Shown here one piece after another: positions 11,379 to 18,367 of a DNA stretch of 24,095 nucleotides. Each line of letters begins with the position of its first letter. The first letter of the stretch is position 1. The notes beneath the pieces were generated by a model. The model worked only from the letters and a program-made list of their open reading frames with translations, searched no databases and was not told the DNA's origin. Position numbers and translations under genes: made by a program. The stretch lies in IMG/VR virus record IMGVR_UViG_3300047560_000181, positions 1 through 24,095 of that record. One strand, written 5' to 3'. This stretch comes from a virus.

Positions 11379-11646
11379 ATGGCCTTCGCCAATAGCTCGA
11401 TCAGCGACATCATTGCGACTAACATTCAAAGCCGCACCGGTGAACTAGCTGATAACGTAACAAACAACAACGCTTTATTGCGCCGACTCAAAGAACGTGG
11501 CAATGTAAAGACATTTTCTGGCGGTAACGTCATCCTCCAGGAAATTATGTACACGGATTCGGCAACGGACAACACCAATAGCTATTCAGGCTATGAAGTG
11601 CTAAACGTTAGCCAAAACAGTCCCATTGACGAACTAGTGGCCTTGT
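11379..11646 (+). CDS. major capsid protein, exon 1 (N-terminal 89 codons)
   Basis: The gene starts at an ATG behind GGAGA at about 11370. The first exon encodes MAFANSSISDIIATNIQSRT, then LADNVTNNNALLRRLKERGN, FSGGNVILQEIMY and NSYSGYEVLNV, a typical N-terminal arm and start of an HK97-fold capsid protein of podovirus type. Coding continues to codon TTG and the first base of a split codon, T at 11646. Read without splicing, the next bases give a UAG stop at 11646-11648, making an 89-residue truncated product. The rest of the protein is encoded from 11886 after a group I intron. The exon end is set by the P1 wobble pair in the intron and by frame; I consider it likely but it is not proved. 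Confidence 0.88.
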
Positions 11647-11885
11647 AGAGAAATCTGCATTGAAAAACTTTGTGAATTCGGTGGAACTCTGACCATTAAG
11701 TTGAAGACAATACCGAGCCAAGCCCAGAGATGGGAAGGTGTAACGACTAGGGTGTGACTACCCGTAGAGCCAAGTGGCTCGAAGTGCAAAGAACCCTACG
11801 GGGTTGTGAGATAGTCTGCTCTGCATAGAAATATGCAGCAGTCCGAAAGGGCGGCAAGAAATTAACGACTTCTTGTGAACATTTG
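11647..11885 (+). ncRNA. group I self-splicing intron, td-like, in the major capsid gene
   Basis: These 239 bases interrupt the capsid frame and carry a group I core. P1 pairs the exon end TGT with GCA and the intron AGA with TCT around a GAAA loop (11644-11659), with the U-G wobble at the splice site (11646/11657). The P/Q/R/S elements are CAATACCGAGCCAAGC (11708-11723), AAGGTGTAACGACTAG (11735-11750) and GAGATAGTCTGCTC (11808-11821). P7 pairs GACTA (11745-11749) with TAGTC (11812-11816). P8 pairs CCCGTA (11761-11766) with TACGGG, around an inner GAGCC/GGCTC hairpin. P9 hairpins are CTGCAT/ATGCAG, GTCC-GAAA-GGGC, and CAAGAA/TTCTTG with loop ATTAACGAC. From memory, the 3' half closely resembles the T4 td intron (subgroup IA2), including the TGAACAT-x-TG end. 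Joining 11646 to 11886 restores the frame through a TGT codon. No homing endonuclease is inside. Confidence 0.92.
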
Positions 11886-12640
11886 GTAGTGCGGCACAGT
11901 TTTCGATCACCCAGTACGCTGCTGCGGTTTCAATCAGCGGTTTGGAAATGATCCAAAACAGCGGTAAAGAAGCAATCATCGATTTGCTCGATGGTCGTAT
12001 GCAAGTGGCTGAAGCACAATTGGCTAACCGTATTTCGCAAGATATTTATCTTGACGGTACTGGTAACTCAGGCAAAAACATCACCGGTCTCGGTGCTGCT
12101 GTTCCTGATGCGCCTGCTACTGGCACATACGGCGGCATCAATCGTGCTACTTGGTCGTTTTGGCGCTCTGTCGCTTATTCTGGTGTAACTGATGGCGGCG
12201 CTGCTGTGTCGGCTTCAAACATTCAGAAATACATGGACTCGGTTGCTGTTCAACTGATTCGTGGAACTGACAAGCCTGATTTGATTGTTTGCGACAACAA
12301 CTACTACAGCCTGTACTTGCAGTCATTGCAAGCAATTCAGCGTATTACTGACGGTGGTAACTCTGGCGTTGGTGCTGGTTTTGCAAGCCTGAAGTATTAC
12401 GGTGCTGGTATGGCTTCTGACGTTGTGCTTGACGGTGGTATCGGTAACGATGCGACTGCCAATCACATGTGGTTCTTGAACACCAAGTACATGATGTTCC
12501 GTCCACACGTTGACCGCAATTTCGTGCCAATCGGCGGCGAACGCCAAGCTGTAAACCAAGACGCAATCGTGAAGCTCATCGGCTGGGCCGGGAACCTCAC
12601 ATCGTCTGGCCCTCAGTTTAACGGCGTGTTGATTGCCTAA
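11886..12640 (+). CDS. major capsid protein, exon 2
   Basis: The second exon begins with GT, completing a Cys codon with the T of exon 1, then encodes SAAQFSITQYAAAVSISGLE, MIQNSGKEAIIDLLDGRMQV and LANRISQDIYLDGTGNSGKN. These are conserved spine-helix and loop segments of the podovirus-type HK97-fold capsid protein. It ends GWAGNLTSSGPQFNGVLIA before the TAA. The spliced gene has 268 + 755 = 1023 bases, 340 residues, a normal length for the family. Reading upstream from the first internal start (TTG at 11942) meets no stop until 11876, inside the intron, so the exon is open across the splice site. The protein forms the capsid shell, guided by the scaffold upstream. Confidence 0.9.
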
Positions 12641-16411: not shown

Positions 16412-17675
16412 GTCAGTTCAAGCGCCGCCAGTTCCGGATTATGTCGCAGCAGCGAAAGAGCAGGGCAAGCAAAATCTTGATGCGGCAAAAACGTCTGTTG
16501 TTTTGTCAAACCCAAATGTAATCACCCCCTATGGGACGCAAACTGTTTCATACGGCACTCCTACTTTTGACGAATCTCGTTACAACACAGATTTTGCAAA
16601 TTATCAGCAAAAAGCAAAGAACATCAATCGAAATGCTTTTTATCAGTCTGGCACTACAGACGAAGGCAATAAGTACAATTATTTTGATGATGCTGCGTAT
16701 CAAGCCGCATTAAAAGAAATAGGGGCAGCGCCTGATAGAAGTGCTTACACAACGCCAGGCACTCCGACTGTTACTCAAACTTTAACGCCACAAGCGCAAC
16801 AAACCCTTGATTCACAACAAAGAATTCAAACAGCTTTAGCTAATCTTGGTGAAGTTGGCATTGCTAATGCTCGTGCAACGTTGGAAAAACCTTTTGTTCC
16901 GACAACAACGGAAATTAAACACGATTTTGGTGGTTATGGCGAAGTGCCATTAGCTCAAGATTACATGGCAAAGACAGATGTGCCATTACAGTATTCTTTG
17001 GATACAAGTAATTTAGCGCCTATGCCAATCAATGTTGGCACAAAAGCACAAGATTTAATTTTGCAACGTTTAAACCCAACAATTCAAGCTGGGGATACTT
17101 CGTTCAAACAATCATTGGCAAACCAAGGGTTAATGCCTGGCACAGCAGCCTACGATGCAGCATATAGAAATCGAGCAAATCAAATTAACGATTTGTATAA
17201 TCAAGCGGCACTTACAGGCATCAATCTTGATTTAACAGCTCGTCAACAAGGTTTAAATGAACAAAACTTGTTAGGCACTTTTGCAAATCAAGCGCAACTT
17301 GCAGGTGCTGGTTTATACAATTCGGCAATGGGGCAAAATTACGGTCAAGGAATGACCTCACAAGGCACTCAATTTTCTCAAGGTCTTAACAAAGCTCAAT
17401 TTCAAAATACTGCACAACAACAACAGCTTGCACAAGATATGGCATTGCGAGCGCAGCCAATTAACGAAGTTATTGGGCTTTTGGGTGGCTCTCAGATTCA
17501 ATTGCCTCAATTCCAAGGTTATCAAGGCACAAGCGTTGCACCTGCACCAACATTTGCGGGTGTGCAAGCACAAAATCAAGCTGCTATGCAAAATTATGGC
17601 ATTCAACAGTCTGGTGCAAACGCAACGACTCAAGGTCTCACTCAAGCGGCGCTGGCTGCGGCAATGTATTTCTAA
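16404..17675 (+). CDS. Gln-rich internal virion (ejection) protein, probable
   Basis: This encodes 423 residues. The N-terminus MGKSVQAPPVPDYVAAAKEQ and NPNVITPYGTQTVSYGTPTF is a widespread opening of podovirus virion proteins. The middle has TPQAQQTLDSQQRIQTALAN and the C-terminal third is rich in Gln, Ala and Asn with helical repeats (GLNEQNLLGTFANQAQLAGA). These features, and position between neck genes and the large peptidase-fused protein, suggest an internal virion or ejection protein. No catalytic domain is visible. The TAA overlaps the next ATG (TAATG). Confidence 0.7.
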   Translation: MGKSVQAPPVPDYVAAAKEQGKQNLDAAKTSVVLSNPNVITPYGTQTVSYGTPTFDESRYNTDFANYQQKAKNINRNAFYQSGTTDEGNKYNYFDDAAYQAALKEIGAAPDRSAYTTPGTPTVTQTLTPQAQQTLDSQQRIQTALANLGEVGIANARATLEKPFVPTTTEIKHDFGGYGEVPLAQDYMAKTDVPLQYSLDTSNLAPMPINVGTKAQDLILQRLNPTIQAGDTSFKQSLANQGLMPGTAAYDAAYRNRANQINDLYNQAALTGINLDLTARQQGLNEQNLLGTFANQAQLAGAGLYNSAMGQNYGQGMTSQGTQFSQGLNKAQFQNTAQQQQLAQDMALRAQPINEVIGLLGGSQIQLPQFQGYQGTSVAPAPTFAGVQAQNQAAMQNYGIQQSGANATTQGLTQAALAAAMYF

Positions 17676-18367
17676 TGTTAGGTTTAGCTTTTTCTGGTGG
17701 CAAAGATTCGCTTGCTTGTTGGTATTTGTACAAAGACAAAAACCCTATAGTTTTTTGGGCAAATACTGGCAAAGCGTATCCTGAAACGATTGAAATAATT
17801 GAAAAAATTAAAGCAGAAGCGATTGAGTTTATTGAAGTAGTTTCAGATCAACAAGGTCAAATTGAAAAGTTTGGATTGCCTAGCGACATAGTGCCAATAG
17901 ACAGCACAAAAGATGGGATGCAATTGACAAAACAAAAGCCTGTAATGGTGCAAAGTTACTTAAATTGTTGTTATCAAAACAGATCAAAACCTTTGATGGA
18001 TGCTGCAAAACAACGTGGGATTACTCAAATGATTCGTGGTCAGCGGCTTGATGAAAGTCATAAAAGCACAGCTAAACACGGTTCAATAGTTGATGGGATC
18101 ATGTTTATTCAACCAATTGAAACATGGTCAAAAGAGCAAGTTTTTGCATTTTTGAGAACGCAAGGTGATTTGCCAGAGCATTTTTCAATAGATCATTCAA
18201 GCCTAGATTGTTATGACTGTACAGCATATTTAAACCATTCTTCAGACAGAATTGCGTGGACAAAAGAAAAACACCCAAAGCTGTATGAAAAATATAAAAT
18301 AAACATGGCGGCGTTAAAAACTGCTGTGTTGCCCACTTATGAAATATTAAGGAATTGCGATGTTTAA
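17675..18367 (+). CDS. PAPS/APS reductase-family PP-loop protein with CC...CxxC signature
   Basis: The protein has 230 residues. It begins MLGLAFSGGKDSLACWY, with the PP-loop SGGKDS at 7-12 that binds the nucleotide phosphates, then a WANTGKAYPET segment, RGQRLDESHKS (121-131) and IQPIETWSKEQVFAFL. Cys98-Cys99 and Cys179-x-x-Cys182, about 80 residues apart, match the 4Fe-4S signature of APS reductases and related enzymes. The usual C-terminal catalytic ECGLH motif of CysH is absent; the protein ends EILRNCDV. Related proteins reduce PAPS or APS, or act in DNA phosphorothioation (DndC) or RNA thiolation. Both ends overlap virion genes, so it is translated with late genes. The substrate cannot be set from the sequence. 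Confidence 0.88.
   Translation: MLGLAFSGGKDSLACWYLYKDKNPIVFWANTGKAYPETIEIIEKIKAEAIEFIEVVSDQQGQIEKFGLPSDIVPIDSTKDGMQLTKQKPVMVQSYLNCCYQNRSKPLMDAAKQRGITQMIRGQRLDESHKSTAKHGSIVDGIMFIQPIETWSKEQVFAFLRTQGDLPEHFSIDHSSLDCYDCTAYLNHSSDRIAWTKEKHPKLYEKYKINMAALKTAVLPTYEILRNCDV

Follow-up and report, generated by a model that had tools for sequence, protein, structure and literature searches.

Group I introns within virion structural genes of phages have been described before: the capsid intron of mycobacteriophage LittleE was confirmed by RT-PCR, the tail intron of mycobacteriophage BAKA has 265 bp and no endonuclease gene, and the paper that reports both also cites a capsid intron of the lactococcal phage Tuc2009 (PMC3706429). 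The introns of T4 td, nrdB and nrdD, all of subgroup IA2, reside in genes of nucleotide metabolism. For some introns, mobility can be provided by an endonuclease that acts in trans: the psbA intron of S-PM2 can be moved by F-CphI (PMC6083498) and the nrdB intron of T4 by MobE (PMC2988022). Here, we analysed IMG/VR record IMGVR_UViG_3300047560_000181 (positions 1 to 24,095; these 24,095 nt are called the window below), and we conclude, with a probability of about 93%, that its major capsid gene is split after U11626 by a group I intron of the T4 td/nrdB kind, with the ends given below. The first-pass annotation had regarded a capsid gene as a less common host for such an intron; uncommon it is, but LittleE and, as cited in PMC3706429, Tuc2009 are precedents, and the intron of the window is a further case of a phage capsid intron.

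The window has two open frames, one at 11379-11648 and one ending at 12640, which cover consecutive parts of the major head protein family PHROG 9953 (positions 4-79 and 84-328 of 329, respectively), in agreement with the two capsid-protein halves that had been seen to flank an insert. At the curated cut-off (50 bits for RF00028), Rfam has a single match in the window, Intron_gpI (RF00028), which covers the full model (1-253 of 253) at 11615-11838 (64.3 bits, E=2e-14), and the earlier reading of a group I intron that splits the major capsid gene is thus borne out. Both halves of the capsid gene are present in 78 of 80 close IMG/VR relatives that were compared; in 74 of the 78 the protein is continuous from Ile83 to Ser84, and an insert after residue 83 is found only in L025, L026, L028 and L038. 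As these 74 relatives run directly from Ile83 to Ser84, the insert comprises 260 nt (11627-11886); the insertion is precise, the gene is otherwise continuous, and the 260 bases are absent from the homologous capsid genes rather than part of their coding sequence. All features described here are on the plus strand: exon 1 (11379-11626) has 82 codons and the AU of the Ile83 codon, the intron (11627-11886) is non-protein-coding and exon 2 (11887-12640) includes the stop codon. With U11626 as the last base of exon 1 and G11886 as the last base of the intron, the Ile83 codon is rebuilt from AU of exon 1 and U of exon 2, and the predicted spliced capsid protein has 333 residues. These two terminal bases, a U that is paired with G in P1 and a G, match the requirements of group I chemistry.

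These ends differ from those proposed in the first-pass annotation, which had an insert of 239 nt, a 5' splice site at 11646 and a spliced product of 340 residues, because an in-frame UAG stop codon inside the intron (11646-11648) had been taken for the end of the exon. This boundary is 20 nt too far downstream and the six residues DELVAL are intron read as codons; the junction 11646/11886 was rejected, as DELVAL is present in no intronless relative and the junction does not fit P1. In some intron copies the in-frame TAG reads CAG, as expected of non-coding sequence. An intein was also considered and rejected, because there are stop codons within the reading frame of the insert.

A set of helices from P1 to P10, including P7.1, P7.2, P9.1 and P9.2, can be drawn by hand, and P3, P4, P6, P7, P8 and the P3/P7 pseudoknot are all present in both the Rfam model and the hand drawing; the P, Q, R and S elements that had been noted between the capsid halves, together with P7, P8 and P9, are indeed there. 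P1 (11623-11640) is an inferred pairing of CCAUU (11623-11627) with AGUGG (11636-11640), and its U11626·G11637 pair marks the 5' splice site. It is followed by the P2 hairpin (11645-11658; loop GAAA, in some copies GUAA), by P3 (11668-11674 with 11785-11791), by P4 (11677-11682 with 11712-11717), which encloses P5, and by P6 and P6a (11718-11738; P6a pairs CCC with GGG). The guanosine-binding helix P7 pairs GACUA (11745-11749) with UAGUC (11812-11816), and the hairpins P7.1 (11750-11763) and P7.2 (11767-11780), both paired by hand, lie between P7 and the 3' strand of P3. P8 (11792-11805) and P9 (11821-11838, GAAA loop) are seen in the Rfam match and by hand, and P9.1 (11842-11851) and P9.2 (11855-11875) by hand. 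The 5' strand of P10, ACUA (11633-11636), is predicted to pair with the first four bases of exon 2, UAGU (11887-11890). P1, P10 and the terminal G coincide with the ends fixed by the relatives.

Across nine distinct copies of the intron, 99.4% of the cells of the hand-drawn structure pair, compared to 37-41% in a control with the partners slid by one to three columns. Nearly all differences between the copies leave the helices intact: two pairs are altered in both partners (U-A to C-G in P5 and G-C to A-U in P9.2), and P2 and P10 have one-sided changes that retain pairing; the innermost pair of P9.2 is not maintained. Covariation offers modest support for the drawn structure, because few columns vary. 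The plain energy fold, which leaves out the P3/P7 pseudoknot, is unexceptional (z=-1.5). Hairpins P7.1 and P7.2 in the position given above are typical of subgroup IA. Together with sequence kinship they support the classification of the intron as IA2-like, of the T4 td/nrdB type: the likeness of the 3' half to the T4 td intron, which the first-pass annotation had noted, is confirmed with 65.6% identity over 125 nt (E=7e-9), and an nrdB-type intron of a T4-like phage, to which the 3' half is closer than to T4 td, is 72% identical over 152 nt.

Most likely, the intron splices itself from the transcript by two transesterifications. The RNA would fold and a guanosine bound to P7 would attack after U11626, where P1 has its U·G pair. 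The end of exon 1 that this releases, aligned by P10, would in turn attack after G11886. Joining of the exons would produce AU plus U (Ile) at codon 83 and restore the 333-residue capsid protein. On unspliced RNA, ribosomes would stop a few codons into the intron, and no capsid protein would be made without splicing. The sequences show the structure, the exact ends, the distribution, the horizontal spread and the replacement of flanking exon, whereas splicing in cells and any role of an endonuclease are inferred.

A pattern scan of IMG/VR identified 11 further contigs that carry the intron in the same capsid gene and at the same site, with 93.9-98.1% identity to the intron of the window. When a tree is made from the capsid coding sequences, with nine full-sequence carriers and after removal of the 90 nt that flank the junction on either side, the carriers are scattered: at least six changes are needed, and a single carrier clade is rejected (p-AU 1e-4). 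Two of the carriers have identical introns, with coding sequences that are only 86.6% identical. By these comparisons, the intron has spread horizontally between related phages at one site.

The exons next to the intron have been replaced too. Each carrier and its nearest intronless relative share only 77-90% identity in the 45 nt on either side of the junction, as against 91-98% in the remainder of the gene. On average, identity near the junction falls by 14 points in carriers and by 3 points in non-carriers (p about 1e-5); nothing comparable is seen at seven further sites of the carriers, with the limitation that flank replacement was examined in carriers only, which biases towards tracts that hold the intron, since a replaced tract must then include it. 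The pattern shows replacement of the flanks by recombination, and not by itself the action of a nuclease. The spread most likely proceeds by homologous replacement, in which some tens of bases of the adjoining exons are carried along, and it may be initiated by a cut that an endonuclease from another locus makes in trans.

The intron has no homing endonuclease of its own, as there is no sense ORF of at least 60 amino acids within its 260 nt, and no endonuclease gene was found next to the capsid gene, either in the window or in three longer carriers. An endonuclease gene common to the carriers was not found. Searches of the carrier records for HNH and for GIY-YIG endonucleases returned nothing, the latter with a screen that is unreliable, as it missed a known GIY-YIG gene (that of L075, see below). 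One of the three longer carriers scanned, L256, has an HNH_3 endonuclease gene (1718-2260) upstream of the large terminase gene. There is close to an even chance that the intron spreads by ordinary homologous recombination of co-infecting phages, with no endonuclease involved: neither the intron nor the neighbourhood of the capsid gene provides one, the carriers encode proteins of the Erf-like annealing, SSB and exonuclease families, which makes general recombination a real alternative, and the capsid genes of the group have a mosaic look at other places as well. What speaks against it is the shortness of the replaced tracts, which have the intron at their centre, and the lack of a comparable drop at the seven other sites, even if this is in part a matter of ascertainment. 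A nuclease acting in trans is plausible by analogy to S-PM2 and T4 nrdB; we hold such a step to be tentative, at rather less than even odds, and rate the two routes as about equal.

A related intron that does bear an endonuclease is present in the same capsid gene. L075 has, at 2075-2779, a different but related group I intron at codon 27, which encodes a 152-residue GIY-YIG protein (Pfam E=6.5e-6) and matches the Rfam model over its full length with a sub-threshold score of 34.7 bits. It is conceivable, if somewhat doubtful, that a minimal intron without endonuclease, in the capsid gene of a widespread group of uncultured phages, keeps spreading between lineages at one site via a putative trans nuclease and that its endonuclease-bearing relative targets codon 27 of the same gene. 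Another related group I intron, with 72.3 bits and no ORF, is found at 12757-13010 of L135 (same contig as L151), in a distant capsid gene that is about 24% identical to that of the window. Nearly identical relatives of L135/L151 do not have the intron. One of them is L154, in which, upstream of the junction there is one mismatch in 2247 nt, at a distance of 3 nt, and downstream there are seven mismatches within 86 nt and then none for 2.3 kb. The L135 intron has thus been gained recently, along with a short stretch of replaced flank. No related intron was found in a set of Mx8-like capsid genes; this set gives no intron frequency, because the query favours uninterrupted copies.

In comparison to the intronless L002, the exons of the window have 93 synonymous and only 3 nonsynonymous codon differences. 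The capsid exons of carriers are thus under strong purifying selection across the intron, which indicates that the capsid product is used. This makes it very improbable that the insert is a degenerate intron in a broken gene, or the break an assembly artefact: twelve independent contigs share the insert with an intact core and intact exons, and the exons change almost solely at synonymous positions. More improbable still is that ribosomes bypass the insert or that the halves are made as separate proteins, for which the stop codon at the end of the first half and a TTG start in the second could be quoted, since the group I core is complete and the splice-site pairings fall exactly at the ends set by the relatives, the position of the stop varies between copies and the protein is a single chain in 74 of 78 relatives.

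The predicted self-splicing intron is a clear case in the gene for the most abundant structural protein of a phage, with exact ends and 12 copies, and the near-identical phages with and without it are a natural experiment on the spread of an intron that has no endonuclease. Such capsid genes are prone to be split by gene callers, as in the window, where six intron-encoded residues were added to the first half. Elsewhere in the window, positions 324-1178 encode a member of the TET-associated glycosyltransferases (Pfam PF20691, E=5e-44; PHROG 842), which suggests glycosylated modified bases in the phage DNA, and a PAPS-reductase-family protein is encoded among the late structural genes (17675-18367). 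A capsid gene with 73% identity is present on a 1.2-Mb contig of Pandoraea iniqua LMG 31009 (L265); it probably belongs to a prophage and gives a hint of host range.

Of the named phages, large Vibrio phages (eugene 12A10, 249E41-1 and their relatives) have the introns that match best: two segments, which together cover 61-71% of the query, are about 80% identical. These phages differ in their much larger genomes and in the neighbouring genes, and Vibrio phage 249E41-1 encodes a NUMOD1 protein directly downstream of the intron. With the introns of T4 td, nrdB and nrdD, the capsid intron shares the core, P7.1/P7.2, the S region and the P9 hairpin, but its host is a capsid gene, it has no endonuclease ORF and it is only 260 nt long. 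The S-PM2 psbA and T4 nrdB introns likewise have no working endonuclease of their own; they do have partner endonucleases, whereas a partner of the capsid intron is only hypothetical. LittleE, BAKA and Tuc2009 also have their introns in virion structural genes, and, as here, a U ends exon 1 and a G ends the intron (PMC3706429). Their hosts and genes are unrelated to ours, and the LittleE intron carries a LAGLIDADG-like ORF, while the intron of the window has none. What is less usual than a capsid intron as such is that copies devoid of an endonuclease have moved between phage lineages at one site of a capsid gene.
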